From assembly GCF_015624505.1 (NCBI RefSeq), contig NZ_CP061379.1, positions 5,890,001 through 5,954,000 of the forward strand: a stretch of DNA of 64,000 nt, given 5' to 3'. Under the pieces are notes generated by a model. The model was given only the letters and a program-made list of their open reading frames with translations, was not told where the DNA came from and ran no database searches. Origin of the DNA: Bradyrhizobium commune. GTDB taxonomy: Bacteria > Pseudomonadota > Alphaproteobacteria > Rhizobiales > Xanthobacteraceae. Every line of letters begins with the position of its first letter. The stretch's first letter is position 1. A program made the position numbers and the translations under genes. Positions 5,631 to 46,863 of this stretch are shown one piece after another.

Positions 5631-8600
5631 TCAGACGTGCAGTAGAAAGCCGTCGTGCACAGCGGGGTGTGGGATCTCCGACGCCAACTGCACGTTATGA
5701 TCGAAATGGGTGTCTGTTGGGAGCGCGGCGGCAGGCTGGAAATGTGAGGCCAATGCATTGCTGAGACTTACCGGTACAGGCTGCGAGGACGCAACGGCGA
5801 AATTGAATCCGTCTGCCGGTGGATCGATGACGAGCGTGCCTCCCTTTCCATCACTCGAGAGATTGAACGTGGAATGGGTATAGTCGCCGACCAGCGTCAG
5901 CTTTGCGACATGGTTCTGCGCGTCCGAAACCGTCAGCACACCGCCCGATGTATTGCCCGCGTAGGAGACCTGCGTTCCCGTTCCGAACGAGATGTCCCGC
6001 AGATCAAGAATGTCCGAATGCGCAGAGCTGCCGTCACCAGTCAGACCGTAGATCTTTCCCGTAAACTGCGTCGCATGATCTAGCACCAACGTACCGGTCT
6101 CACTGGCGAACGTGATCGAGCCCGAAACCCCGCCCGTCAATTCGAGCGTCGCGCCTGCTTCGATTTTCACCGCCTGGCTCATGTTGGTGAGGTCGAGGAC
6201 AACTTTGCCGGAGATGTCCAACACACTCGATGCCGTGTTGATCACTCCGTCACCATTGAGGTCCTGATGCATCACGGTCTCGATCGCCTTCAAGGCGTCG
6301 CCCGTTCCAGAAACATTGCTGAGGAGATTGGAGGTGAAGTTGCCGTTGCTGTCGGTGGCCCACACCGTGTAGGCCCCAGTATAAATGTTCTTCCAGGCAA
6401 CGTCGTAGCCGCTGGAGGTCGCCTCCGCCCCGATCGCCGTCCACGTGCTGGTGGGCCCCATTGCATAGGCAGCGCCGCCGGATTTCAACACGACTTCGGT
6501 GCTGCCTGAAGACAGATGCAAATAATTGCCGGACTGTGTCAGGCTCGTTGTGCCGGCGCTCTCCAGCAAACCGGCCGTCGTCCCCGATGTTGTGCCGGAG
6601 GTATCAGCAGTGCCAGCGTTGACAGCTGCACCGGATATCCCGGACGACGTAGCGGAATGTGATCCGATCACACCGTCGCCATTAAGGTCCTGCTGAAATA
6701 GCGTCTCGATGGACTGCAACGATGCACTCGTTCCCGAGACATTGCTCAGCAAATTGGAGGTGAAGTTACCGTTACTGTCAGTGGTCCACACCGTGTAGGC
6801 GCCGGTGATAATGTTCTTCCAGGCAACGTCGAAGCCGCTCGAGGTGGCCTCCACCGCGATCGGCTTCCAGGTGCTGGTCGGCCCCATCAGATAGGCCGTA
6901 CCATTGGACTTCAGCAACACATCGGTGCCGCCCGATGATATCCAGAGGCGGTTGCTGGCCTGCGTTAGGCTAGCATTGCCGATGCCGTCGATTAGCGTCC
7001 CCACGATCGGATCGAGCGCGGCTGAAGGACCGCTCACATTTCCTGCGACATCCGTCGCAGTTGCTGTGAAGGCATGCGCTCCGTGGGTGAGCGCGCTTGT
7101 GGTGACGCTCCAAGCTCCGTTCGAGGCCGTCACCGCCGTACCCAACAGTGTGCTGCCCTCGTACAGCTTGATTGTGCTGCCTGCCTCGGCCGTTCCCGAG
7201 ACAACCACCTTGTTGCCGGCGGTGAGCGTATCCGAGATCAGCGCCGGCGCTTTCGGCGCGGTCGTATCGATAGTCACCTTCACAGAGCTAGACACCACGC
7301 TGACATTGCCAGCTGCGTCAACCGCCTGCCCGGTGAAACTATGGGCACCATCAGTCAAGATACCAGTCGTAAACGACCAATTGCCCTTGCTGTCGACCGT
7401 AGCGGTGCCGATCTGCGTCGCGCCGTCGAACACCAGCACCTTACTACCGGCCTCCGCGGTTCCCTGCAGCGTCTGCTGGTTGGCTTTGGTGATGCCGTCG
7501 CCCGCAACACCGGTGTCCGATGAGAACGACGCAATACTCGGCGCGGCAGGCGGAGTGATATCGGCGCCCGGGTCTCCCGAAGCATTCCCGGTACCGATCT
7601 GAATGACGAGCGGATGATCAGTCAGAGAAACGTGAATCTGCGAGACATTGGTATATGTCGCAATCGGGCTGCTGCCGACCAGAGGATCGTAGACATAGAC
7701 GACGGCATACGATTTTCCGAGATTGACCGTTACGTCGCTGGTCGGGGACGCGATCTCCTTCTGCTTGGTCGGATCCCAGATGACGTGCTCATCCCACAGC
7801 ACCAGGTCGAACGTACCATTGTGCTTCTCCAACAAGAGCTGCTGGGCACTCGTCGGCAGATTGTCGAGACTGTAGCCCAGAGTTCCGGGCGTGAAAGGCT
7901 GCGACGCGCTGGGATCATTCAGAATTGTCGTGAGATTGTGTATTGCAGTGGCCACCAGCTTCGGGCTGCCGTCGTTGTTGAACAAGCCGAAATGCGCTTC
8001 CTTGTCGGTGAACTTCGGATCGGCCGCTTCATCGAAGAGCTCATACAGGAAAGTTTGCGCGACGCCGCTCTTGAAGGCGTCCATCAAGGTATCGAGCGTA
8101 TACTTCGCCTGTACCGTCTGATCGACGCCGCTCATCGTATCGCTGGTCATCGTATCGTAGCCCGTCTCAGTGAAGATGACGGGCAAGCCGGCAGCATCCC
8201 ACTGCGCGATCTTGATGTCGTTCTGAATGACCTGGTTCGGCGTCGTGCCGCTCCATACATAGGCGTGGATATTGGCGTAGTCGGCAGAAGACGACAGATT
8301 TCCAACCTGGCTATAGTTGGCGCTGTTCGACTGAGACAGCGTGAGGTTATAGACCGGCACGTCTTTCAAGGCCGAATCGGCCTGAACGCCGGCGAACAAT
8401 GCGCGCTGGAATGCAGCCGCGCTCGATAACGACGAACTGCCATTGTAGGTGAAGGTCTGGATATCGACCTCGTTGGGGCCTTCGATACCGATCAACTGCC
8501 CCGGATGCGCTGCGACAAACGCATCGAGCTGTTTGAGGAATGTAGCTGGGTCAGTCCCCTGGGGCGTCAAGAAGTCGAACTTGATGCCGTCACTCGCCAA

Positions 8601-8801
8601 CTGGGAATAGGCCGCCTGAGCATGTGCCGTCGAGAACATGCTGCCGTCGCGAACGCTCGAGACTCCGAGATACGCAAGCGAGCTCTCAACTAGGCCGACA
8701 TTCTCGTACACCGTCCAGTTGCCCAGGTGAGTATTGACGCCAATCGACTGCACGAATTTGCTGGCGTCGATCGCGGTGACGTTTGATATGGCGGTTGTCA
8801 T
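5631..8801 (-). CDS. Large secreted clan GH-A glycosidase with Ig-like and W-rich repeat modules, 1056 aa
   Basis: Residues 1 to about 310 form a TIM-barrel glycosidase. GIEGPNEVD places a probable acid/base Glu at 111, and VIFTETGYD a probable nucleophile at Glu212, as in clan GH-A (GH5/GH39-like). Two bacterial Ig-like repeats (about 412-512 and 513-605) follow. Then come two modules of about 100 residues with conserved Trp and a calcium-loop-like end, QDLNGDGVI (about 606-712 and 745-854), a beta-rich domain, and a tail ending GFLLHV. There is no N-terminal signal peptide. Together with the C-terminal tail this suggests type I secretion through an exporter outside the window. It probably cleaves or remodels the EPS. 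The ATG at 8801 is chosen for an upstream AGGG; in-frame TTG 8870 and ATG 8861 are alternatives. The C-terminal half is almost identical in DNA to the gene at 19222-24132. Confidence 0.8.
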   Translation of the reverse strand: MTTAISNVTAIDASKFVQSIGVNTHLGNWTVYENVGLVESSLAYLGVSSVRDGSMFSTAHAQAAYSQLASDGIKFDFLTPQGTDPATFLKQLDAFVAAHPGQLIGIEGPNEVDIQTFTYNGSSSLSSAAAFQRALFAGVQADSALKDVPVYNLTLSQSNSANYSQVGNLSSSADYANIHAYVWSGTTPNQVIQNDIKIAQWDAAGLPVIFTETGYDTMTSDTMSGVDQTVQAKYTLDTLMDAFKSGVAQTFLYELFDEAADPKFTDKEAHFGLFNNDGSPKLVATAIHNLTTILNDPSASQPFTPGTLGYSLDNLPTSAQQLLLEKHNGTFDLVLWDEHVIWDPTKQKEIASPTSDVTVNLGKSYAVVYVYDPLVGSSPIATYTNVSQIHVSLTDHPLVIQIGTGNASGDPGADITPPAAPSIASFSSDTGVAGDGITKANQQTLQGTAEAGSKVLVFDGATQIGTATVDSKGNWSFTTGILTDGAHSFTGQAVDAAGNVSVVSSSVKVTIDTTAPKAPALISDTLTAGNKVVVSGTAEAGSTIKLYEGSTLLGTAVTASNGAWSVTTSALTHGAHAFTATATDVAGNVSGPSAALDPIVGTLIDGIGNASLTQASNRLWISSGGTDVLLKSNGTAYLMGPTSTWKPIAVEATSSGFDVAWKNIITGAYTVWTTDSNGNFTSNLLSNVSGTSASLQSIETLFQQDLNGDGVIGSHSATSSGISGAAVNAGTADTSGTTSGTTAGLLESAGTTSLTQSGNYLHLSSGSTEVVLKSGGAAYAMGPTSTWTAIGAEATSSGYDVAWKNIYTGAYTVWATDSNGNFTSNLLSNVSGTGDALKAIETVMHQDLNGDGVINTASSVLDISGKVVLDLTNMSQAVKIEAGATLELTGGVSGSITFASETGTLVLDHATQFTGKIYGLTGDGSSAHSDILDLRDISFGTGTQVSYAGNTSGGVLTVSDAQNHVAKLTLVGDYTHSTFNLSSDGKGGTLVIDPPADGFNFAVASSQPVPVSLSNALASHFQPAAALPTDTHFDHNVQLASEIPHPAVHDGFLLHV
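5799..6549. repeat. Long direct repeat copy A (about 751 bp)
   Basis: This segment of the glycosidase gene matches 19447-20197 base for base at a constant offset of 13,648, with only six mismatches found by reading the two copies side by side. It encodes the second W-rich/EF-hand-like module and most of the C-terminal beta-rich domain. A second, less perfect shared block follows at 6673-6965. Confidence 0.9.
6673..6965. repeat. Second direct-repeat block, copy A (about 293 bp)
   Basis: This block matches 20264-20556 with roughly ten mismatches and encodes most of the first W-rich module. The sequence between the two blocks differs in both length and sequence between the two genes, so the similarity is a patchwork. 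Confidence 0.8.
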
Positions 8802-9406
8802 CTTATGGCCCTGCAGCGACGACCAGGATGGTTGTCGCGTCGAGGGCAAGCTAGCGGACATGAATTTCAACCAACTAAACGCGCGGTTCCCATTTTTACC
8901 GACGAAGGGATGTCAAAGTCGATTAGTTATTTCAATCGATTTTTAAGAAACTCGAAAATGCTTGCAGAATCAGCCCAGATTCTTTGCTCTGTTGCCTCCG
9001 CGGAGCGAGGATAAGTGGGATTCCCGTGCAAATACGGTATCGATGTTCGGCGAATTGGCCGCCCCTAAGGGACCGCCCAACCAGGCCGCGCATCGCGGCG
9101 CCCGCCGCCTTGAGATGAATCACTCTCCTAGCGCTATTTCTGCGCGTTATTTGACGCCTGTGAACCAGTGCGCACATCGTCGGCACGACGCGGGCGACCA
9201 GGAAGGGCCTCGTAGTTTTTGAATATCAGAATTCACATCGAGAGGAAAATTTATCGCCCACTTTCGCAACGGGGGTGCTGGCAAGAGACGACGATTTCAC
9301 TCCGACGGCCCTGTTGCCGCTTCCATCGTCCGGCCGCATATTCTAATAATGTGCTTGGTAAAAAATCCGAGCAAGTTTGATCTAACTATCACGTCCGGTA
9401 GTAAGC
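8802..9406. other. Divergent intergenic region, about 600 bp
   Basis: It separates the leftward glycosidase gene from the rightward glycosyltransferase gene at 9407, so it should hold both promoters. An A/T-rich TTTTAAGAAA element lies at about 8940-8949. No protein-coding frame here is convincing. Confidence 0.4.
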
Positions 9407-29575: not shown

Positions 29576-29663
29576 TCTACGCGCGCGCGTTGCCCGGTCG
29601 GTAACGGTCTTGCCAATCTCGGCAACAGCCAACAATAGTTTGCAGAAGATAGGAAGTCCGGAC

Positions 29664-30830
29664 GTGAAGATACTTTGGATCTGCGGAAGATTGCCCGCGC
29701 CGCTATTCAGCGGCGACGCTCTCTACACTGCGGGCCTGCTTAAGGCTCTTGTCAAATCGGACGATGTCAGCCTGACAGTCCTTGGCGTTCGCAGGACGGA
29801 TCAGGACTCCGCGGGGCCATTGCTTGGGCCTGCAGGCATTCGGCTCGTGGAAGTTCCAGCGCCGAAATCGTCGGGCCTCTGGAGTCTTGCATCTTCGTTG
29901 CCCAAGGATGCCTACACTCTCTGTACTCCCGAGTTCCAGCAGGAGCTTGGCCGGCTCCTGCGTAGGGACTGGGACTGGATCGTCGTCGATCACGCCTACT
30001 CTGCTGGAGCGCTGTCGACAATTCTACGAGGCCGCGGTGGCGCGTCCCTCTGCTACATCGCGCACAACGCGGAGGGGCTCATTCGTCCCAAAATTGCGAG
30101 CGGCGTGCAAAATCCGATTCGCGGCGCGGCGACGCGTCTAGACGCCGAAAAATATCGACGACTCGAGCACGGGCTTCTTGATGCAGCCGATGCGGTCGTA
30201 TGTATCACGAGCAACGATGCCGCCTATTTTCAGAAATTCGCGAAGCGTGTGTATGTGATCCCTCCGGTTTTCCTGGGCACGCCAAGTCCGAGGCGGACGA
30301 TCAGTGCTGATTGCCCAAGGTCCTTGCTTCTCCTCGGAGAATTCAAATGGATCGCTAAGCAGCGGAATCTTGAAATCATTATTGACGCGCTTTTGCCACC
30401 CCTCCAGCGCAGCCAGGTCTCCCTGAACGTCGTGGGCGTCGTTCCGCAGCACATCCAGAACCGGCATGCGAGCCTGCGGCCATATCTCAAATTCCACGGG
30501 CGACTCGCCGATCCCTCCCCTCTTTTCCTTTCAAGCCGTGGCGGATTGGTGCCGGAACTGTTTGGCGGCGGTTTCAAGCTAAAAGTGATGGACTATGCTT
30601 TTGCAAGACTACCAATCTTCGGATTGACTGAGGCAATGGCTGGCACAACGGCAGAGGAACAGTCAGCGATGTTCCTCGCGAATAACATCGCCGGGCTAGC
30701 GGACGCAATCGTCGAAAACGTCGACAACCTTGATCGACTCAATGAATGTCAAGAAACGCTTTTGCACCTGTTCTCAAACCGCTTCTCGCTCGATACAGTC
30801 AGCACTCGTCTTGGCAAAGTCTTCCGCTAA
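29664..30830 (+). CDS. Glycosyltransferase (GT4-like), 388 aa
   Basis: The N-terminus VKILWICGRLPAPLFSGDA and the donor-domain start LLLLGEFKWIAKQRNLEII indicate a GT-B glycosyltransferase. Near the C-terminus FGGGFKLKVMDYAFARLPIF takes the place of the EX7E motif. The start is the GTG at 29664, with AGGAAG seven bases upstream. It follows the secreted GH16 gene by 88 bases, so the two may be co-transcribed with the polymerase-like gene at 30928. Confidence 0.8.
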   Translation: MKILWICGRLPAPLFSGDALYTAGLLKALVKSDDVSLTVLGVRRTDQDSAGPLLGPAGIRLVEVPAPKSSGLWSLASSLPKDAYTLCTPEFQQELGRLLRRDWDWIVVDHAYSAGALSTILRGRGGASLCYIAHNAEGLIRPKIASGVQNPIRGAATRLDAEKYRRLEHGLLDAADAVVCITSNDAAYFQKFAKRVYVIPPVFLGTPSPRRTISADCPRSLLLLGEFKWIAKQRNLEIIIDALLPPLQRSQVSLNVVGVVPQHIQNRHASLRPYLKFHGRLADPSPLFLSSRGGLVPELFGGGFKLKVMDYAFARLPIFGLTEAMAGTTAEEQSAMFLANNIAGLADAIVENVDNLDRLNECQETLLHLFSNRFSLDTVSTRLGKVFR

Positions 30831-30927: not shown

Positions 30928-32211
30928 ATGACTGCGCTGGCGGAATCAGGCCCATCGCTTTCGGCTACGTCCGAGAAAGAGCTTTCGAGCGTGGGCAGGC
31001 TGGCGATCCGGGCGGCAGTGACCTCTACTCTTTTCTTGACCCAGATCGCCTACAATATCGGCGATTTCCCGGTCACAATGGAGTTCGTCAGCTACGCGGC
31101 GCTGGTGGTCTATATGCTGATATCGGGTCACGCTACCGTCAGTGTCCCCACTATCTTTCTCTACATCGCCACGGTCACCTGCGCGCTCGCCGCCATGAAG
31201 CTGACCGTCCTGCCCGCCTCCTCAAGTTCGTTGCTTCTGCTGTTTGCGCTCTATGCCCCTTTTTCCTTTCGCTTGCGCGCGGGCCCGGACCTGAAGGCCG
31301 TCCACGAAGCTATCCAAGGGACCTTCGTCTCCGCAACAACCGTGATTGCGATCATCGCCATTGCGCAGTTCGCCATAGTGAACGCGTTGAAGGTCAATGC
31401 GCTCACCAACATCTATTTTATCCTGCCCGAGGCCATTCGTGGAGGCGGCACTTACACGTTTCTCCGCGAGGGCGGCTCCCTGGTGAAGGCAAACGGATTC
31501 TTCCTTCGCGAGTCGGCGGACCTTTCGCTCATGACCGCGCTGGCTTTGCTGATTGAAATCTCGACGCGGGCCAGATTTGTCATCATCGGCGCCCTTGCGG
31601 CAGCACTCCTATGCTCATTTTCCGGTTCCGGCATGCTCGCCCTGATGCTGGGCCTCGTGCTGCCGCGAACGGTTGGGCGGTTGCCGCTGTTCGTGGCTTC
31701 CGCCACCACGCTGATACTGGTCATGCTGATGCTCTACTACGCCGACATTCCCGGTATCAACAATCTGTTCTTCGATCGGCTTGCGGAGATCAACCAGCCG
31801 GGCACGAGCGGTTATGCTCGTTACGTTGCGCCGAAAGCCATGGTTGATTTGAACCTGCACAATGGTGGCATTGGCATGTGGCTGGGAAACGGCGGGGGAA
31901 GTTACCTCCGAAGCACAATGCTGCTGCGAGTAAAGTACGAAATTGCCGATCCGACGTGGGCGAAGCTGACGTTCGAATACGGCCTGTTGGGTCTCGCGCT
32001 GCTCGGATCAATCTTTGCCATCCGTGTATATTCAAGCGCGCTGGACGTCAGGATCTGTAACTATATCCTGTTCGTTTGGGTTGTGAACTCGGCCGTCCTC
32101 AAGATTCAATATGTTCTTGTGTTCTGGCTGCTGACACTCGTGCCCAAAATTCCCGCCCGCCGCAACGGCTTTGGCTCGAGCGCTCCGCCCTCGACTCGGA
32201 ATTCACAGTGA
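30928..32211 (+). CDS. Polymerase-like polytopic membrane protein (O-antigen ligase/Wzy family), 427 aa
   Basis: About ten hydrophobic helices; a periplasmic loop with LREGGSLVKANGFFLRES and a second loop with GMWLGNGGGSYLRS, followed by FEYGLLGLALLG. The overall layout matches Wzy-type polymerases, although sequence signatures are weaker than in the proteins at 12838-14145 and 46863-48341. It is likely to act in the periplasm on lipid-linked repeats. It converges with the MaoC-SDR gene, with 24 bases between stops. Confidence 0.7.
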   Translation: MTALAESGPSLSATSEKELSSVGRLAIRAAVTSTLFLTQIAYNIGDFPVTMEFVSYAALVVYMLISGHATVSVPTIFLYIATVTCALAAMKLTVLPASSSSLLLLFALYAPFSFRLRAGPDLKAVHEAIQGTFVSATTVIAIIAIAQFAIVNALKVNALTNIYFILPEAIRGGGTYTFLREGGSLVKANGFFLRESADLSLMTALALLIEISTRARFVIIGALAAALLCSFSGSGMLALMLGLVLPRTVGRLPLFVASATTLILVMLMLYYADIPGINNLFFDRLAEINQPGTSGYARYVAPKAMVDLNLHNGGIGMWLGNGGGSYLRSTMLLRVKYEIADPTWAKLTFEYGLLGLALLGSIFAIRVYSSALDVRICNYILFVWVVNSAVLKIQYVLVFWLLTLVPKIPARRNGFGSSAPPSTRNSQ

Positions 32212-32235: not shown

Positions 32236-33681
32236 TTATCGCGCCTTCCAGCCGCGCTGAACGTCGCGAACTAGCGGGATCAACGTCTCTAAAGCGTCTG
32301 CAGACTCGACATCGGAAATCGACGCCGTCTGATCGGTGAGGATCCGAGGAAGGCGAGCCGTCAAAATGCGCAGATTCTTCATGCGCCTGTCCAGATCCTG
32401 GCATAGAATTTCACCTGCGGCCTTCGACATTGCATATTCCGTCATGTTGTCCGGCCTCTGATCCAGCGCCGACGATGACGGATAGAACACGGACAGTTGA
32501 TCTTTGGGCTCACGGTCGCGCATCATCTGTTCGATCAGCGCGTAAAACCCCGCGACATAGAACACATTGAATTGTTGAAAAACGGCTGGCGAATAGGCCG
32601 CCGTCTTGCGGCGGAAGATCGACGGCGTTGCGAAATAATAGATATGAGAGGGCGCCGCGGGCAGCGACTTCAGCTGGCTTTCGGGATCGCCGGAGACGTC
32701 GTACGGAACGACGTGGCAGTCTCCGCCTCCCTCGACGATGTCCTGCGCCACGCGCTCGGCGTCGGCCTTTCCCGCAACATAGGTCAGAACGACCTTGCCG
32801 CCGCCAGCCGCGACGATCTTTCCGACCAGTTCTCCCAGCCCGCGCGACCCGCCGACGACAAGGGCGATTGAGCCTTCAAACTCCGCTGCGGCGACCTTCG
32901 ACCTGATCAGCGCGACCGAGGGCTGCGCAATCGGTTCTGGCCGGTTGAAGGCTTCGACGTGGCCGAGCATGCCGCCGCCGGAAATCTCCACACGGACGTA
33001 TCTGAGCTCGGGCTGCACGGTGCTGACTTGGTAGTCGATCGCGCTGCGCGAATCCTCGTCGGTCGTGAAGCCGACTTCCAGCCCGCCGAAAATCGAATGC
33101 AGGCCCGGAACGACCATTCCGACCAGACGGGTGCTGCAGCCGAGCCCGGCTACCCGGCGCGGACCAATCATGCGCGCAGCCATCGGAAACATGCGAGCGA
33201 TCTCGTCAGCGTCGCTGGCGAAGGCCAACCGCCCGCGTTGTGTCGCCATGGCCTCCAGCGTCGTCTCCAGAGGCGCGCTCGGATTGAGCACCTCGCCGGC
33301 AGCCGCGCCGCCGCCGACGTCGGCCGATCGCGGCCGGGCGGCCCCGAAGCCGACGATCAACTGCATGATATCGACGGAACCGACCGAGACCTTCGCCCGC
33401 AATTGCTTGCCGTCCTGCTTCAGGACCGTGGCCTGGGCGAGTTCACCGAGATACAGCATCTTGCCGAAATTGACCCTGAACCTGGCGATCTCCGGCAGAT
33501 CTGGCATCTGGCTGCCTATGCTCTCGAGCAACCACAACAACGTATGGATGCCGTGCACGATCGGAGAGCCCGCCATGGTCCGGCGGGCGGCTACCTCATC
33601 GACGTGAATCGGATTCCAGTCGCCAGTCACCCGCGCGAAGTGGCGCTGATCGTCCAGATCGAACGTGCGTTGAGCAAGCAA
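32236..33681 (-). CDS. MaoC-type hydratase and SDR ketoreductase fusion, 481 aa
   Basis: Two enzyme parts in one chain. Residues 1-130 carry a hot-dog domain with the MaoC/R-hydratase motif FARVTGDWNPIHVDEVAA (Asp21 and His26 probably catalytic). A second hot-dog-like segment (PGLHSIFGGLEVGF) lies around 185-260. Residues about 270-450 form an SDR domain with GGSRGLG (277-283), a PSSSAL serine and YAMSK (Tyr416, Lys420). Such proteins interconvert beta-keto, beta-hydroxy and enoyl acyl thioesters, here probably on the ACP encoded next door. The start is taken as TTG 33681 because GGAGG lies just upstream; longer in-frame extensions would overlap the ACP gene. It is the last gene of a five-gene leftward operon. 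Confidence 0.82.
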   Translation of the reverse strand: MLAQRTFDLDDQRHFARVTGDWNPIHVDEVAARRTMAGSPIVHGIHTLLWLLESIGSQMPDLPEIARFRVNFGKMLYLGELAQATVLKQDGKQLRAKVSVGSVDIMQLIVGFGAARPRSADVGGGAAAGEVLNPSAPLETTLEAMATQRGRLAFASDADEIARMFPMAARMIGPRRVAGLGCSTRLVGMVVPGLHSIFGGLEVGFTTDEDSRSAIDYQVSTVQPELRYVRVEISGGGMLGHVEAFNRPEPIAQPSVALIRSKVAAAEFEGSIALVVGGSRGLGELVGKIVAAGGGKVVLTYVAGKADAERVAQDIVEGGGDCHVVPYDVSGDPESQLKSLPAAPSHIYYFATPSIFRRKTAAYSPAVFQQFNVFYVAGFYALIEQMMRDREPKDQLSVFYPSSSALDQRPDNMTEYAMSKAAGEILCQDLDRRMKNLRILTARLPRILTDQTASISDVESADALETLIPLVRDVQRGWKAR

Positions 33682-33724
33682 CGGAAACCTCCGGCGGATG
33701 CGATCGGCAGGACGGGCTGCGAAG

Positions 33725-33982
33725 CTAGGCCTTCGCCTGCAGCTTCTTCTCGATGAGTTCGGCGAATTCCCCAACGTTCTTGAGGCTGCCGATCTCGGAC
33801 GCGGTGAAGTTGACGCCGAACGCCTTGGAAACCTCCAGAACCAGGCGGATGTGGGTCAGGCTGTCCCAGCCGTCCACGTCGTCGGCCGTCGTCTCCGGCG
33901 AGATCGAAAGGTCGTCTTCGAAAAAGACATCGCGAAAAATTCCGGTGAGCTTTTCGTAGATCTGCGGTGATGTCATCATCAT
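33725..33982 (-). CDS. Acyl carrier protein, 85 aa
   Basis: Four-helix carrier protein with the phosphopantetheine attachment site GWDSLTHIRLV (Ser41), acidic helix I/II surroundings (FFEDDLSISPE) and normal length. It is distinct in context from a housekeeping AcpP, which normally sits with fabD/fabF. Here it lies between an SGNH/MBOAT pair and a MaoC-SDR gene. It should be the thioester carrier for the acyl unit handled by this operon. Three consecutive ATGs begin the gene (33982, 33979, 33976). Confidence 0.92.
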   Translation of the reverse strand: MMMTSPQIYEKLTGIFRDVFFEDDLSISPETTADDVDGWDSLTHIRLVLEVSKAFGVNFTASEIGSLKNVGEFAELIEKKLQAKA

Positions 33983-34012
33983 TCCATCGTTGAAGAAAAA
34001 ACGCGCCTTCGG

Positions 34013-35113
34013 CTATCTAAGCGACGATCCGGAGGACGCAATCGGAGAACGCTCACCGTTGCATACCAGCGGATTGAGGACCTTGGCCAGCCGTGCCGAC
34101 CACACCTTCGCCAGATGCGGCTTGGCATGGACCTCGTCCGAATAGTCCTCGTTGCCGTCGAGGTCGCTCATCTGCATGAACGCAAAACCGGGCTGACCGC
34201 CGAACTGCCGGACGACGGCCTGCAATGCGGATTGATATGACGCATAATACGGGCTGGCGTCGCGATGCCACGCCGGAATGGGAAGGTCGGCGAGCACGAC
34301 CCGCTCGCCGCCGTTCAGCAGCCGGTCGATGGTCGCGATCAGCAGCGCGACCTGCTGCTGCGAGATCTGGTCCTTGCTGCCCATGCCCTGACGCCAGTAC
34401 GCCAGCGCGTCCTGCTTCTGCTTGTCGGTCATGACGGCGGCCTCGCGCTCGGCATCCGTGCGGTCACGCGACCGGCCGGCCGCGCGCTCCGCGATGGATC
34501 TTACCTCGCGCGTGGCCTTCTCAAGGAGCAGGATCGGGCGGATCGCCGCAACGCCGGCGTCGAGCCAGGCGGGCGGCACGACATTCACCGGTCCGCTGGC
34601 GGTCCGCCGCGCAAATCCGTAACGGTACCGCTCGATATCGATGTCCGTGTCGCCGCGATGCCGGTCCGCATCATTGTACCGGACGTCGGATTCCACGAAC
34701 AGGCCGTACCATACGCCGATGACGAACGTATTCAGCTTCTGGACCTGCGGGTCCTGAACTTCATGGACCAGATCGATGATCTGCTCGACCTGAGAGACGT
34801 TCGTCCCGCCGACGCCGAGGTTGCTCACCTTCGAGCACTGCATCAGCGGCTGGACCATCGCGGCCCTGAATCCGTTCCCGATGTTCGACGCGCCGACCAT
34901 GATGACCCGCTTGTCGGCAGTCGTCAGCACCTGACGACCAAGAAAAACATATTTCGGCGGCGTCATATACAGCGTGTTGCCGGCGGCCTGGGCATCGAGC
35001 ACGCCGTTTTGCGCCGGAGGCGGCAGGACGACGAACGACACGCCGAGAACGATCAAATACAAGGCCGCCAGGAACACGAAGGTGAGCGCGGCCTGTTTGA
35101 GAATGAACTTCAA
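34013..35113 (-). CDS. Membrane-anchored SGNH-like protein (AlgJ/DltD-like partner of MBOAT), 366 aa
   Basis: An N-terminal signal anchor (AALTFVFLAALYLIVLGVSF) is followed by a periplasmic SGNH-like domain. VGASNIGNGF (Ser76) matches the GxSN block I, and DLDGNEDYSDEVHAKP near residues 315-331 supplies a candidate Asp and His. AlgJ/AlgX and DltD proteins of this type work with MBOAT proteins to pass an acyl group to a cell-surface polymer. The TTG start follows the MBOAT stop by one base. An alternative start inside the anchor is less likely because it would remove part of the helix. Confidence 0.75.
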   Translation of the reverse strand: MKFILKQAALTFVFLAALYLIVLGVSFVVLPPPAQNGVLDAQAAGNTLYMTPPKYVFLGRQVLTTADKRVIMVGASNIGNGFRAAMVQPLMQCSKVSNLGVGGTNVSQVEQIIDLVHEVQDPQVQKLNTFVIGVWYGLFVESDVRYNDADRHRGDTDIDIERYRYGFARRTASGPVNVVPPAWLDAGVAAIRPILLLEKATREVRSIAERAAGRSRDRTDAEREAAVMTDKQKQDALAYWRQGMGSKDQISQQQVALLIATIDRLLNGGERVVLADLPIPAWHRDASPYYASYQSALQAVVRQFGGQPGFAFMQMSDLDGNEDYSDEVHAKPHLAKVWSARLAKVLNPLVCNGERSPIASSGSSLR

Positions 35114-35114
35114 T

Positions 35115-36545
35115 TCAGAATGCCTTGTACACGAAGTCGGGCGCCTTGTGGAAGAGGCTCGCGATTGCGACGATGGACATCAATTTGCCGGCCAGCACCG
35201 CGTTGCGGACGAAAAGGCCTTCGCCGAGGCCCGCGACAGATAGGCCGCCGATCCGCTTGACGACGCCATCCGTTACCAGAGCGCCGATCGCGAACAGCAA
35301 TGCGATCATCGCGAACCCTCCGCCCAGGCCAACGACGCCCAGCCTCTGCACCAGTGACAACAGCTGCGGAAGCCCTGGAATCCACAGGCAGGTGAAGGCC
35401 AGCACGAAGAATGCGATCGTCACGCCACGCGCGCCGTAGATGTACCAGACCTTCTCGGTGAGCGCGCGGTAGCCTTTCTTGCCGAGCTTGCTGGTACAGC
35501 CGATCTGCCAGATCTTGTTGACGCTCGCGCCCACCCCCATCAGGAGACCGTACACGACGAACACGGCCGTGGTGCCGTGCCATACGCCCATGACCATGAA
35601 TGTCACGAAGAACGCGACGACGCCGAGATAGGCCGTCAGCGCGGGAGCCGGAAACAGCGACATCAACGCCATCAGCAGCGGGTTGAACAGATAGAACTTG
35701 AACCACTGCGACAGCGTCATGTGCCAGCGCTGCCAGAACTCCAGGAAGCTGCGGGACAGAAACGGCTTGTCGAAATTTTCAGGAAGCGCCTGCCCGAGCA
35801 GATGCCCGGCACCGATGACGATGTCCATGTAGCCGGCGAAATTGAAATAGAGATGGATCATGTAGGTCGACGAAGCCGCGGCGTAGAGCACGACGAGCTT
35901 CGATGGCCCCGCCGCGTGATCCAGTTGCTGGCTGAAATAGGTGAAGGCGTATTCCGCGGTGGCGGCGATGATCACGAACTTCACATAGCCGGTCGCCATC
36001 CTGGAAAAGGCGGCATAGACCCGGTTCGCGTCGAGCGGCGCCTGCTCCACGCCGTCGGAAGCCGAAAACTCCTGATACCGCTGGATCGGCCCGGAAACGA
36101 ACGTCAGGAAGTTGCAGGTGTACCGGAAGAACGCCAGGGGACCGACCGGCTGCTCGAGATCGCCGGACCGGACGTCGATTATGAGGTGCAGGATGCGGAA
36201 GAGAATGTACGAGAGGCCGATCAGCAGGTAGGGGAATGGAAGACTTCCGAGCGGCTCGAAAAACGAAAAGCGCTTCAGAAAAATGAACGAGACCAGGACC
36301 GCCGCTATGCCGAGCCCGAGTACGCGGCCCGACCGTCTCGCATGCACGAGCATGACGGCGATATAGCCCAGCAGCAGAAACGCAAGCAGCGGCAGCACTT
36401 CCGTGACGTTGCTGAGATAGCTTCCGATGAATACGGCGTTGGCCGCCCCCAGCACAAGGCGCCGGTATGACACGGACGCGCTCAGGTGATACGCGACGAT
36501 CGTCGCCGCAAGAAAGGCAAAGAAGGTCGGTGACGTCAGACTCAT
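35115..36545 (-). CDS. MBOAT family O-acyltransferase, 476 aa
   Basis: A polytopic inner-membrane protein of about ten helices with the MBOAT signatures FWQRWHMTLSQW (around 262-273) and GVWHGTT, whose His is near residue 323 and is probably catalytic. AlgI and DltB are the best studied relatives and move acyl groups across the membrane onto alginate or teichoic acid. Its neighbours, an SGNH protein directly downstream and an ACP gene two genes on, parallel DltB-DltD-DltC. It starts 27 bases after the FkbH-like gene and should be co-transcribed with it. Confidence 0.9.
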   Translation of the reverse strand: MSLTSPTFFAFLAATIVAYHLSASVSYRRLVLGAANAVFIGSYLSNVTEVLPLLAFLLLGYIAVMLVHARRSGRVLGLGIAAVLVSFIFLKRFSFFEPLGSLPFPYLLIGLSYILFRILHLIIDVRSGDLEQPVGPLAFFRYTCNFLTFVSGPIQRYQEFSASDGVEQAPLDANRVYAAFSRMATGYVKFVIIAATAEYAFTYFSQQLDHAAGPSKLVVLYAAASSTYMIHLYFNFAGYMDIVIGAGHLLGQALPENFDKPFLSRSFLEFWQRWHMTLSQWFKFYLFNPLLMALMSLFPAPALTAYLGVVAFFVTFMVMGVWHGTTAVFVVYGLLMGVGASVNKIWQIGCTSKLGKKGYRALTEKVWYIYGARGVTIAFFVLAFTCLWIPGLPQLLSLVQRLGVVGLGGGFAMIALLFAIGALVTDGVVKRIGGLSVAGLGEGLFVRNAVLAGKLMSIVAIASLFHKAPDFVYKAF

Positions 36546-36572
36546 CGAAATACCGTCCAGCTCGGTGACACG

Positions 36573-38492
36573 TCAGACCAGCGCGTCCTGCGCCCGGTCG
36601 TATTCCACCGTCATCGGGGCATCGTCGAGCTTCACACCCGTCGAAAGCTCCCATCGGCTGGCGCCGTCGGCGGTCCGCGAGACTCCCGTAAAGCCGAGCC
36701 GCTGATAGTGTTCGGCGACCATGCCGTTCTTGTCCGTCGGACGGTACTCTCCGATCACGGTGGCAATGCCGCTCGCGCGTGCCTGTTTCACAATCTCTGC
36801 CAGAACCGCCTGTTCGACCCGCCGGCCGAGCACCCGACAGCTCATCAGCCAGGTGTCGATCGTCCAGATGCCGGGCGCGGTGGTCCGGCAGATGATGACG
36901 CAGATGATGCCGTTGTCGCCGAATTTGTCGATCAGCCGCGCATGCAGTGTCATCACGTCCGGCGACCGCTCGAGCTGCTCGACCTGCGGCTCGGAATAAC
37001 GCTGCGTGGTGAGGTTGAACTGGTTGCTCTTGTTGATGAGCTGGGTCACGCGCGCACGCGATCGCGAATCGACGGCGCCGTACACGATCCGCATGTCCAG
37101 CGAACGCAGATAGGATTCGATGTCCGTTGTCTGCCCCATCAGGCTGAGACGACGCGCGTTGCCCTGGTACATCTCCGCGCGCGTCCTGTCCTCGTCGGAA
37201 AACCCGATGGCCTCGAAATATCCCGCCGCCGCCAGCGTTCTCGCATAGTTCGCCGGATCCTCTTCGAGTTCCGGCACGCCCACTTGCGGCAGCTCGCGCC
37301 GGATCAGGGCCCGCTCGACCGGGTTGTCGTCGAGGAAGACCAGCGACTCCAGGCCGAGCGCGAGCTCCTTCGCGATCGCGCGGATATTGCTCGCCTTGTC
37401 TTCCCAGTTCGCCTGAAACACGGCGATGTGGTCTTCCCGCAGGAGCATGTCGGGATGCTCCTTGAAGGGCCGCCTCGCGACACTGTCGGTGTTCTTGGAG
37501 CTGACGGCCAGAACCACGCCCCGCTCACGCAAAGCGAGCGCGAGCTGCTGCACGCTGAGATGCGCCTCTCCGGTCGCATCGCCCTGCGCGATCTTGATGC
37601 CGTCCATTCCGTCGTCACCGATGATGCCGCCCCAAACGGTGTTGTCGAGATCGAGCACCAGGCACCGGCGGCTCTTGCCCCGCATCGCGCCGATGATCCG
37701 GACGACGTGATCGGCGTAGAGGGGAACGAACGAGTTCGCGAACGGAAGCTTCGCCAGATTCCACAACGGAGGCGAATGCCAGTCGGCGAGCCCCACGGTC
37801 TCTGCGACACCGGCGACATCGAACAGCAGATCGCTGGAGCCGGCGATCGACTCGGCGAGCCTGCGGTTGAAGTCGTCGATCAGATGCCTGGCGGTGCCCG
37901 GAAGCGCGCGGTCGAACGAGCCGAACAAGCCCTCCGGAGGTGCCGCTAAAGTCTGCACGATGCAGGGCGCGCCGCTGTTGCGGCCGATCGCGTGGCGGAT
38001 CGTGCCCAGAAGCTTGATCGCGTCTTCGACGGCGTCGTCCGCAGCCTGCCGGTTGCCCGGTGTCGGCTGCAGCGACAGCCCGCGGTGGTCCAGCGCCACC
38101 AGCACAGCATCGACGCCGGCCTTGTTCAAGGCGGACTCGGGGTCCAGCGCGTCCTGCAGATACTGGTCGTATGCGCCCGTGACGCATTCGAGCGAAAACC
38201 CATGGCGCGCCGCCGTCGCGACCAGCACGGGTATGATCAGGTCGAGCGTCCCGTTTCCGATCAGGCCCAGGCGGAACGGTGCGAGCGGTGCCATAGATCG
38301 ACCCTTCGACCGGACCGTCTGGATCACTCTTCCCAACCTGGAAAGCTGCTCCTCATTCAGCGAATGGCTCGCCAAGGACCTGATCTGTGTCCCGAGGCCT
38401 GTCTCCGCTTGCAGCAAGGCCTTGCAATTCGACGCGAAGTCGACCGGAGCCGCGGGCAGCCACAACAAGTTCCGATATAGATTAACCGACAC
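36573..38492 (-). CDS. FkbH-like HAD-IIIC family protein, 639 aa
   Basis: Three regions are visible. About 70-270 is the N-terminal domain found in long FkbH proteins (LGLIGNGTLDLIIPVL at its start). About 275-430 is a HAD domain with VLDLDNTVWGG (Asp281, Asp283), SSKN and FLDDNPVERA. About 480-630 is a GNAT-like C-terminal domain. Characterised FkbH homologues dephosphorylate 1,3-bisphosphoglycerate and load a D-glyceryl group onto an ACP for tetronate and methoxymalonyl-ACP synthesis. The ACP in the same operon makes a similar loading reaction plausible; the actual acyl group is unknown. The start is GTG 38492 with GAGG eight bases upstream. It is the first gene of the five-gene operon. Confidence 0.87.
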   Translation of the reverse strand: MSVNLYRNLLWLPAAPVDFASNCKALLQAETGLGTQIRSLASHSLNEEQLSRLGRVIQTVRSKGRSMAPLAPFRLGLIGNGTLDLIIPVLVATAARHGFSLECVTGAYDQYLQDALDPESALNKAGVDAVLVALDHRGLSLQPTPGNRQAADDAVEDAIKLLGTIRHAIGRNSGAPCIVQTLAAPPEGLFGSFDRALPGTARHLIDDFNRRLAESIAGSSDLLFDVAGVAETVGLADWHSPPLWNLAKLPFANSFVPLYADHVVRIIGAMRGKSRRCLVLDLDNTVWGGIIGDDGMDGIKIAQGDATGEAHLSVQQLALALRERGVVLAVSSKNTDSVARRPFKEHPDMLLREDHIAVFQANWEDKASNIRAIAKELALGLESLVFLDDNPVERALIRRELPQVGVPELEEDPANYARTLAAAGYFEAIGFSDEDRTRAEMYQGNARRLSLMGQTTDIESYLRSLDMRIVYGAVDSRSRARVTQLINKSNQFNLTTQRYSEPQVEQLERSPDVMTLHARLIDKFGDNGIICVIICRTTAPGIWTIDTWLMSCRVLGRRVEQAVLAEIVKQARASGIATVIGEYRPTDKNGMVAEHYQRLGFTGVSRTADGASRWELSTGVKLDDAPMTVEYDRAQDALV

Positions 38493-38854: not shown

Positions 38855-39688
38855 TCAACCAACAGGTCGCGCGGCTGCAGGGCTCAAGAGGAATTGAGCC
38901 TTCCATCCCGAATTGGCGCTTTCGCTGGGCTCGAATATAAAATTGTTGACGTAGTCCAGAGAACGGGGGCCGTCGATGGACTTCACGTTGTCATGACTTT
39001 GCAGGCCGGCGACATCGAATTCCGAGAAGGGCCTCAGCGCCCCTCGATGAATGAAATACCCGACATATCCGAGCTCGTCGAAAAACGCCGACAAGCTTTC
39101 AATCCCCCCGGCATTGTGCCGCTCCTCGCATTCGACGATCACCGCGGGCCTGAACTTTCTCAGCGTCTCCCGCGCGCCGCGCAAGACCGACAGTTCGTGC
39201 CCTTCGACATCGATCTTTATGACGCGAAGCCGATCGAATTGAAGGCTGTCGATGCGCTTGAGGTCCACCATCACCTCTCGGGTCAAAAATCCCGGATTGG
39301 CACCAGCCTCGAGACTTGATCGCGATACGACGTCATTGCCGGCCCGATAGGGAATGCTGAGGGTCGATTTGCCGTCGACATCCGACGCCGCAATCGGGAG
39401 CACTTCAACCTGTCCGCGCAATCCGTCCATGAGCTTTCGTGCAGCTTCCGGATGGGGCTCAAGGGCGATCACCTTGCCGAAGAAGCGGGTGCCGTAGAGC
39501 GCGTAGGAGCCCACATTCGCCCCCACGTCGAGAAATTCGCCGCGAGAATCAGCAAGCAGGGGCAGAAGATGGATCTCCGGCTCGCCGCTTTTCAACTCCC
39601 TGTCGAGATGGCGCCGAAGGACAAAGCGGCGTCCAACGACGCGCACGACGATTTTTTTTACGCTGTCAATGAATTCAGGCTTTGCCAT
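38855..39688 (-). CDS. FkbM family SAM-dependent methyltransferase, 277 aa
   Basis: The SAM-binding motif FLDVGANVGSYAL, ALEPHPEA and the FkbM signature IKIDVEGHELSVLRGA are all present. FkbM-family enzymes O-methylate sugars or small carrier-bound substrates. The start at 39688 has GGAT-rich sequence upstream and avoids an unlikely N-terminal extension. It lies 362 bases upstream of the FkbH operon on the same strand. Because FkbH and FkbM-type enzymes appear together in methoxymalonyl pathways, methylation of an ACP-bound or glycan-bound unit is possible but not shown. Confidence 0.85.
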   Translation of the reverse strand: MAKPEFIDSVKKIVVRVVGRRFVLRRHLDRELKSGEPEIHLLPLLADSRGEFLDVGANVGSYALYGTRFFGKVIALEPHPEAARKLMDGLRGQVEVLPIAASDVDGKSTLSIPYRAGNDVVSRSSLEAGANPGFLTREVMVDLKRIDSLQFDRLRVIKIDVEGHELSVLRGARETLRKFRPAVIVECEERHNAGGIESLSAFFDELGYVGYFIHRGALRPFSEFDVAGLQSHDNVKSIDGPRSLDYVNNFIFEPSESANSGWKAQFLLSPAAARPVG

Positions 39689-40012
39689 ATCCAAATCCGT
39701 TGATTGGGGTACACGCAAATTCCGTCGACTGCTTGATGCACGGTATCAAATCGCCTTCCAGATCACGGACCTGCCAGACGGCCGTTCGTAGCACGAAAAT
39801 GCGACACGTTAAGCAAAGTCTAGCAATATGGCTGTTTTCCGGCCAAAGTCACCCAGCCCGCGAGAGGCTCGAGTGGCCGGTGCGACGAAATGCGCGGCAA
39901 TGGCGGATGAACACCTCATCGGAGTGAGGCGGCTTCATTCGCCAAAGGAAGATGTGCTATGGAGTTTCGGCTCTGGACGACGACCCGGCGAGCGAAGTGT
40001 GAGGCAGAAACA
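39689..40012. other. Divergent intergenic region, about 320 bp
   Basis: It lies between the leftward FkbM gene and the rightward methyltransferase gene and should contain both promoters. Nothing else is recognised. If the longer start of the rightward gene (39959) is real, this region shrinks accordingly. Confidence 0.35.
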
Positions 40013-45885: not shown

Positions 45886-46863
45886 ATGTCCCCTCAAGCA
45901 ATAATTTTTGGCGGCGCAGGTTTCATCGGCACACATCTCGCGGCGCGCTTGGTCGCTTCCCAGAGCTACAGCCGGATCGTCTCGGTCGACGTCGGCCAAC
46001 CCAGGGCCACAGTACCGGGGGTCGAGTATGTGAACCACGATGTGCGGGAAGTTATCGATCCGAGCATCGCGAACGGCCAACCCGCCGACATCTTCAATCT
46101 CGCCGCAATTCACGTCACGCCAGGACATCCGGAAGGCGATTACTATTACACGAATGTCTTGGGCGCCGTGAACGTGTGCAAGTTCGCGAACGCCACCAAT
46201 TCCACGAATTTGGTTTTCACCAGTTCGATTTCGATATATGGGCCAAACGAGGCCGCGCTCGACGAGGGTGCCACTCCGGCACCGGTCAGCGCCTACGGAC
46301 GCTCGAAGCTTTCGGCGGAGAAGATAAAGCTGCTCTGGCAATCTGAGGGAGCGGCCCGAAAGCTAACCATAGTTCGTCCGGCGGTAATCTATGGTCTTTA
46401 CGAGCGAGGAAACTTCACGCGCCTTGCTAGAATCATGGCAAGGAAGGCCTTTATCTATCCGGGTCGCACCGATACGATCAAGTCTTGCGGCTATGTCAAA
46501 GATCTCGTTTCATCGATGCTTTACATGTCGTCCCGCAATGAAGCCGTATCGATCTACAATTTTTGCCATGAACACCGATATACGATCAGCGATATCTGCA
46601 CTACATTTTCACGTATTGCCGGTTATCAACAACCACGGTTGACTATTCCGATCTGGTTCATGGATTTTGCGGTATTACCTTTCGAGGTCTTGCATACGGC
46701 TGGCATCAAAACAGGCATCAACCGCGATCGAGTGAAAAAGCTGTGGTTCTCCACCAACATTTTGCCGAAACGCCTAGTGGAAAGCGGCTTCAAGTTTTCG
46801 TATGATTTGGAAAGCTCACTCATGGAATGGAAACGGGAATCGAGTCTAAAGGACTTCGATTGA
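45886..46863 (+). CDS. NAD-dependent sugar epimerase/dehydratase (extended SDR), 325 aa
   Basis: GGAGFIGTHLA is the Rossmann loop, TSSISIYGPNEAA the catalytic serine region, and YGRSK the YxxxK pair. It resembles UDP-glucose 4-epimerase and related nucleotide-sugar enzymes. It follows the substrate-binding-like gene by five bases and overlaps the polymerase-like gene downstream by one base (TGATG), so all three are probably translated from one transcript. Product sugar unknown. Confidence 0.88.
   Translation: MSPQAIIFGGAGFIGTHLAARLVASQSYSRIVSVDVGQPRATVPGVEYVNHDVREVIDPSIANGQPADIFNLAAIHVTPGHPEGDYYYTNVLGAVNVCKFANATNSTNLVFTSSISIYGPNEAALDEGATPAPVSAYGRSKLSAEKIKLLWQSEGAARKLTIVRPAVIYGLYERGNFTRLARIMARKAFIYPGRTDTIKSCGYVKDLVSSMLYMSSRNEAVSIYNFCHEHRYTISDICTTFSRIAGYQQPRLTIPIWFMDFAVLPFEVLHTAGIKTGINRDRVKKLWFSTNILPKRLVESGFKFSYDLESSLMEWKRESSLKDFD

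Follow-up and report, generated by a model that had tools for sequence, protein, structure and literature searches.

What becomes of an acyl group that is loaded onto a carrier protein inside an exopolysaccharide (EPS) locus? The question is raised by a stretch of Bradyrhizobium commune DNA, hereafter the window, which covers 64,000 bases (5,890,001-5,954,000) of a genome assembled as one contig of 7.62 Mb (NZ_CP061379.1). Five genes on its minus strand encode an FkbH-type loader, an MBOAT acyltransferase, a DltD-like SGNH protein, an acyl carrier protein (ACP) and a MaoC-SDR fusion. This leftward run, which the original prediction had described as a Dlt-like acylation operon, was borne out, and its intergenic gaps of 27, 1, 30 and 43 bases were the same when re-measured. 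The set very probably serves the carrier-dependent acylation of a surface polysaccharide. On balance, we favor the more specific proposal that it attaches a three-carbon hydroxyacyl group, by an ester bond and in a carrier-protein-dependent manner, to the exopolysaccharide of the locus in which it lies. Chemical considerations suggest lactyl as a conceivable, though tentative, identity of that group.

The operon is confirmed as real and chance adjacency is rejected, because the FkbH-MBOAT-SGNH-ACP core recurs in the same order and on the same strand in all 12 other loci of the genus that carry this SGNH. Our genus sample comprised 195 genomes; an FkbH match was present in 58 (54 above the cut-off) and this SGNH in 13, the own genome included. 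The remaining 12 SGNH loci (L085-L096) were retrieved along with 40 further FkbH places, in sum 52 of the 64 non-own FkbH places in the genus; to these were added 8 of the 11 places that another search had given outside the own genome. It could be argued that the five genes are unrelated, share no function and form a cluster that arose by chance or is decaying, since the fifth gene varies and the SGNH is found in just 13 genomes, but the 12 conserved cores, the tight spacing and the intact motifs make this hardly credible. The notion that the complete five-gene set is dedicated and conserved together across genomes therefore stood for the four-gene core; it did not stand for MaoC-SDR, which lies outside the fixed set and is replaced in these relatives by a VOC protein. 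At L088 (8675-10173) the MBOAT gene is in two overlapping frames, owing to a sequencing error or a real break, and the core is otherwise intact. Searches for the SGNH in 119 genomes of the family and 347 of the order, samples that held few members of the genus, returned the own genome with one and two weak matches, respectively. Homologues of all five genes occur in one run in a Magnetococcales metagenome-assembled genome (L081), and five pairs of SGNH and MaoC-SDR entries in protein databases, lying on equal-sized contigs (24,101; 62,167; 5,524; 6,722; 41,134 bases), suggest more five-gene sets.

The first gene, fkbH (38492-36573, GTG start, 639 amino acids), encodes the putative loader. All family calls were judged against curated Pfam and NCBIfam cut-offs; FkbH reached 293.5 bits with TIGR01686 (cut-off 146.65), and its match to the Pfam model FkbH_N was slightly under the cut-off (25.8 vs 27). 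The HAD motifs and the C-terminal SCR motif, whose cysteine we take to be catalytic, are both present and invariant, with residues D281, D283, T285, K366, D388, D389, S551, C552 and R553 found in 109/109 aligned relatives. The ACP (33982-33725, 85 amino acids) matched PF00550 with 30.6 bits against a cut-off of 20.8, and scored 16.3 bits with the DltC-specific model (cut-off 68). Its phosphopantetheine serine, S41 of a DSL motif, is kept in 105/105 aligned relatives. Thus the HAD residues and the ACP serine, named earlier as a point where the prediction might fail, are intact, and a broken loader or carrier was rejected. Loading of glycerate is the role described for FkbH proteins (PMC13122637, PMC4979870; these and all papers below are cited from the passages available to us). 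For suomilide, FkbH was proposed to load glycerate from 1,3-bisphosphoglycerate (PMC13122637), and a table entry in PMC7901079 gives D-lactate-ACP as the FkbH product. As its family suggests, the FkbH of the window, the only one in its genome, would take D-glyceryl from 1,3-bisphosphoglycerate and place it on the ACP.

The following two genes are predicted to carry the acyl group outwards. The MBOAT (36545-35115, 476 amino acids), one of three in the genome, matched PF03062 (52.2 bits, cut-off 27), keeps the catalytic H323 in 47/47 aligned relatives, and remained under the LTA_dltB cut-off (181.9 vs 375 bits). It ends in FVYKAF (35118..35135, minus strand), a form of the FXYXXF acyl-shuttle motif. 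PatA is known to acetylate the tyrosine of its own C-terminal FXYXXF, and DltX bears the same motif (PMC12148441). Among 50 MBOAT open reading frames (ORFs) from the fetched loci and the window, 42 end in [FI]xYxxF, 32 with F and 10 with I. Six of the eight lacking a terminal motif (L107, L108, L109, L112, L121 and L124) are shorter, DltB-sized, and followed by a DltX-like microprotein whose last residues are FVYQNF or FAYQNF; these genus relatives are Gram-negative, and FkbH and ACP are present at their loci. The other two are cut at a contig end (L083) or correspond to the first part of the split gene at L088. Since motif-bearing MBOATs and loci with MBOAT plus microprotein were both found, fused and separate shuttles both occur alongside FkbH and ACP.

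The SGNH protein (35113-34013, TTG start, 366 amino acids, N-terminal membrane helix) had no Pfam or NCBIfam match. Its AlphaFold model, built with 31 relatives, reached a pLDDT (predicted local distance difference test) of 85.8, and the first five PDB matches in a fold search were all DltD, with E values of 1.7e-5 to 4.5e-4. S76 (the GASN serine), D326 and H329 (SDEVH) are invariant in the 31 relatives. From motifs and fold, the MBOAT would move the acyl group off the ACP and onto Y473 of its own FVYKAF on the outer face, from where the SGNH would take it on its serine and hand it to the polysaccharide, following the pattern of the PatAB and Dlt mechanisms (PMC12148441). Pfam scans of ten SGNH-like partners outside the genus gave weak GDSL/ALGX matches in two; another, the candidate at L005, is a methyltransferase.

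What would the fifth gene contribute? The MaoC-SDR fusion (33681-32236, TTG start with GGAGG just upstream, 481 amino acids) matched both PF01575 (MaoC, 58 vs a cut-off of 27) and PF00106 (SDR, 31 vs 26.6). The catalytic D21 and H26 of the MaoC part and the Rossmann fold, GGSRGLG and YxxxK of the SDR part are present, and D21, N23, P24, H26, Y416 and K420 are invariant in 34 relatives. In the structural model (pLDDT 90.1) the second half matches solved SDRs, solely SDR-type entries appeared among the 50 fold matches listed, and the order of strands and helices suggests two hot-dog units ahead of the SDR half. According to domain scans the five genes include no ketosynthase by which a different beta-hydroxyacyl substrate could be supplied, which is why we consider glyceryl-ACP as the substrate of this protein. 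On chemical grounds, the MaoC part may strip the C3 hydroxyl of glyceryl-ACP, with loss of water across C2-C3, to give 2-hydroxyacryloyl/pyruvyl-ACP, and the ketoreductase-type SDR domain may then reduce pyruvyl-ACP to lactyl-ACP. A dehydration and reduction of this kind has reportedly been proposed for the bryostatin loading module, for which we found no text. Work on celluxanthene offered no precedent, as it concerns indole-3-pyruvyl.

The usual substrates of MaoC and SDR proteins are beta-hydroxy and beta-keto acyl groups, and the fusion might instead act on a fatty-acid-type substrate, for example by supplying 3-hydroxybutyryl, in which case a hydroxyacyl group of four or more carbons would be transferred and FkbH would have another role. 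Genus loci L121 and L124, where MaoC and SDR are encoded separately alongside FkbH, ACP and MBOAT, speak for this. At L121 (8361-15322) the run reads MBOAT, DltX-like, GDSL-like, KAS III-like, ACP, MaoC, SDR and FkbH, so that the acyl product there may be longer or of another kind. In the window, however, neither the five genes nor the scanned flanking genes included a ketosynthase, and FkbH, with all its catalytic residues kept, is the only loader of the operon; we consider a longer acyl group unlikely here.

The distribution of the fusion speaks for the proposed three-carbon pathway. From one scan of named genomes, 80 MaoC-SDR loci were kept, from Proteobacteria, Acidobacteria, Verrucomicrobia, Nitrospirae, Planctomycetota and others. 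Within 5 kb of the fusion, FkbH was found at 59 of these, ACP at 53, MBOAT at 21 and all three at 15. When restricted to the 42 loci flanked by 6 kb or more in each direction, the counts were 34, 32, 11 and 8. We scanned 120 of 160 selected neighbors, from 20 of the 26 loci with FkbH and without MBOAT, and obtained a mixed picture, in which the commonest families were hexapeptide proteins and methyltransferases with six members each; this mixture makes other end uses of the acyl group likely at such loci.

In the nearest relatives the position of the fusion is occupied otherwise. Directly after the ACP, all 12 core loci have the VOC (glyoxalase/epimerase-like) protein mentioned above, 149-161 amino acids from stop to stop, which matched by phmmer in 12/12, was assigned to Glyoxalase_4 in 4/4 scanned, and has as its nearest PDB entries proteins named glyoxalase or lactoylglutathione lyase. 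FkbH and ACP occur together in 48 of the 60 loci L085-L144, of which 24 have VOC, 13 MaoC or MaoC-SDR, 11 neither, and none both, against 6.5 expected under independence, an expectation to be read with the relatedness of the loci in mind. No VOC match was obtained in the 80 MaoC-SDR loci. Because a VOC gene replaces MaoC-SDR in the nearest relatives, the fifth position appears to hold an exchangeable editor that acts on the acyl-ACP. On a quick FkbH tree (99 rows, long branches), the sole test of joint descent and one made for FkbH only, the FkbH of the window groups with the 12 VOC-type proteins as their sister (support 100); the next branch holds L011, L015 and L060, Acidobacteria with MaoC-SDR and MBOAT (support 86, not starred). 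On this tree 19 changes of the editor label are needed, compared to a mean of 41.5 for shuffled labels; the same loader seems to have been combined with different editors. At the genus locus L126, MaoC and SDR are two separate genes beside ACP, FkbH and MBOAT. VOC would be another editor of the epimerase/glyoxalase kind, perhaps inverting C2 to give L-glyceryl, the form of the glyceryl ester in gellan. We found no report of gellan glyceryl acyltransferase genes in the open-licence PMC literature.

That gellan carries such an ester, and that the core exists without MaoC-SDR in 12 genus loci, is also in keeping with the transfer of glyceryl itself, or of methylated glyceryl, with MaoC-SDR proofreading, recycling or serving another step. 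FkbH is the glycerate loader of the described pathways, and cj1302, which has an fkbH domain, lies in the flagellar glycosylation locus of Campylobacter jejuni (PMC7099621), the same strain having a minor di-O-methylglyceric form of PseAc (PMC3958885). Against this, both active sites of MaoC-SDR are kept in 34/34 aligned relatives and the fusion adjoins FkbH and ACP in many phyla. Because of these two observations a direct role of MaoC-SDR on the acyl-ACP is likely, and a transfer of unedited glyceryl appears somewhat unlikely.

Combinations of FkbH, ACP and VOC also occur without an MBOAT (L111, L113-L116, L118, L120, L122, L125, L134 and L135). Among 81 neighbors of these 11 loci, seven match a GNAT acetyltransferase family (PF13302) and nine a LuxR-type regulator, and the loci possibly represent an N-acylation version of the kit.

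If an acyl group is exported by the MBOAT/SGNH pair of the window, which acceptor does it reach? The operon is surrounded by genes for glycosyltransferases, epimerases, two Wzy_C proteins, a Wzz protein, a Poly_export protein and a GH16 protein, and on account of this gene content the neighborhood is assigned as an exopolysaccharide locus. Neighbor relatives were checked per locus in the 12 core loci at an E value of at most 1e-8, with family counts over 110 neighbors. The epimerase (45886-46860), the GT4 protein (29610-30827), the Wzy-like protein bordering the operon (30928-32208), the GT2 protein and the Wzc/Wzz-like protein of the window have relatives in 12/12, GH16 in 8/12 and Poly_export in 7/12. 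Thus the core tracks EPS loci, a correspondence that the original prediction had put forward for checking. The set might nonetheless acylate something else (for instance a lipid, the peptidoglycan or a small compound), its position in an EPS locus being incidental: MBOAT/SGNH pairs modify several polymers (PMC12148441), and FkbH-ACP loci lacking an MBOAT can adjoin other transferases, such as the GNAT proteins just described. With the window and all 12 relatives sitting among polysaccharide genes, we regard this as very unlikely. Two further genes were noted: an FkbM-family methyltransferase (38855-39718, minus strand), which lies upstream of FkbH in the same orientation at a distance of 362 bases, with no relative in the 12 core loci; and, bordering the polysaccharide locus, a gene (5631-8870, minus strand) for a 1079 amino acid protein with bacterial Ig-like and tryptophan-rich C-terminal domains.

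Several observations weigh against the proposed three-carbon esterification. No record of a MaoC protein acting on a 2,3-dihydroxyacyl group was found in the passages available to us, the D-lactate-ACP line of PMC7901079 being the only one of its kind, and FkbH was not found in the available DNA of 20 of the 80 MaoC-SDR loci. L107-L109 and L112 have MaoC only, which, with the KAS III-like protein at L121, makes other acyl products possible in relatives. The superposition of the SGNH model on DltD is loose, with a TM (template modelling) score of about 0.4 and a root-mean-square deviation of 11-13 A. Outside the genus, most MBOAT neighbors were not recognized as SGNH; a loose SGNH motif pair was present in 7 of 27 non-profile MBOAT neighbors there, vs 14 of 1098 control ORFs.

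Taken more broadly, FkbH, ACP and an exchangeable editor (MaoC-SDR, VOC or MaoC alone) might make up a kit of general use, with which 1,3-bisphosphoglycerate is converted to C3 groups such as lactyl or L-glyceryl that are destined for surface glycans, and which is here plugged into an MBOAT/SGNH exporter with a fused shuttle to give an O-lactylated exopolysaccharide; we offer this as speculation with a fair amount of doubt. If true, it would predict an EPS substituent derived from a glycolytic intermediate, and the editor gene beside FkbH and ACP would provide a sequence rule for predicting the acyl group. It would also join two systems that were described separately, the carrier-protein loading of Dlt and the fused acyl-shuttle MBOAT of PatA. 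No description of an FkbH-MBOAT-SGNH-ACP-editor set was found in the open-licence PMC literature (patents and most subscription papers were outside this scope), where, in the passages available, matches for FkbH with MBOAT concern cyanobacterial peptides only.

Among known systems, the operon shares with Dlt (DltA, B, C, D and X; D-alanylation of teichoic acid) a carrier protein as acyl donor, an MBOAT, a DltD-like SGNH and the FXYXXF shuttle. It differs in that its loader is FkbH and not the adenylating DltA, no adenylating enzyme being among the five scanned proteins; in that the shuttle is fused to an MBOAT below the LTA_dltB cut-off, with no separate DltX; and in its place in a Gram-negative exopolysaccharide locus with an extra acyl-editing enzyme. 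Plain Dlt membership was rejected on the loader and the DltB/DltX features. The description as a Dlt-like operon with an FkbH loader is apt for the carrier protein and the DltD-like partner, but the machine is better called a hybrid, because the shuttle motif is fused to the C-terminus of its MBOAT, as it is in PatA. The FkbH systems of tetronates and suomilide likewise have a loader adjoining a carrier protein; according to the available passages their glyceryl unit goes into a polyketide or peptide, whereas here an MBOAT/SGNH exporter follows. In C. jejuni, cj1302 is also an FkbH gene in a surface-glycan locus, and the available description in PMC7099621 contains no MBOAT/SGNH link. Finally, PatA/PatB of peptidoglycan O-acetylation and the alginate and cellulose MBOAT-SGNH pairs resemble the operon in combining an MBOAT bearing a C-terminal FXYXXF with an SGNH partner. 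According to the passages of PMC12148441 (2025) available to us, these systems use an acyl-CoA donor, and MBOAT/SGNH pathways other than Dlt are without a similar carrier protein, whereas a loader and an ACP accompany the pair in this operon and in 12/12 genus relatives; the operon thus looks like an exception to that rule.

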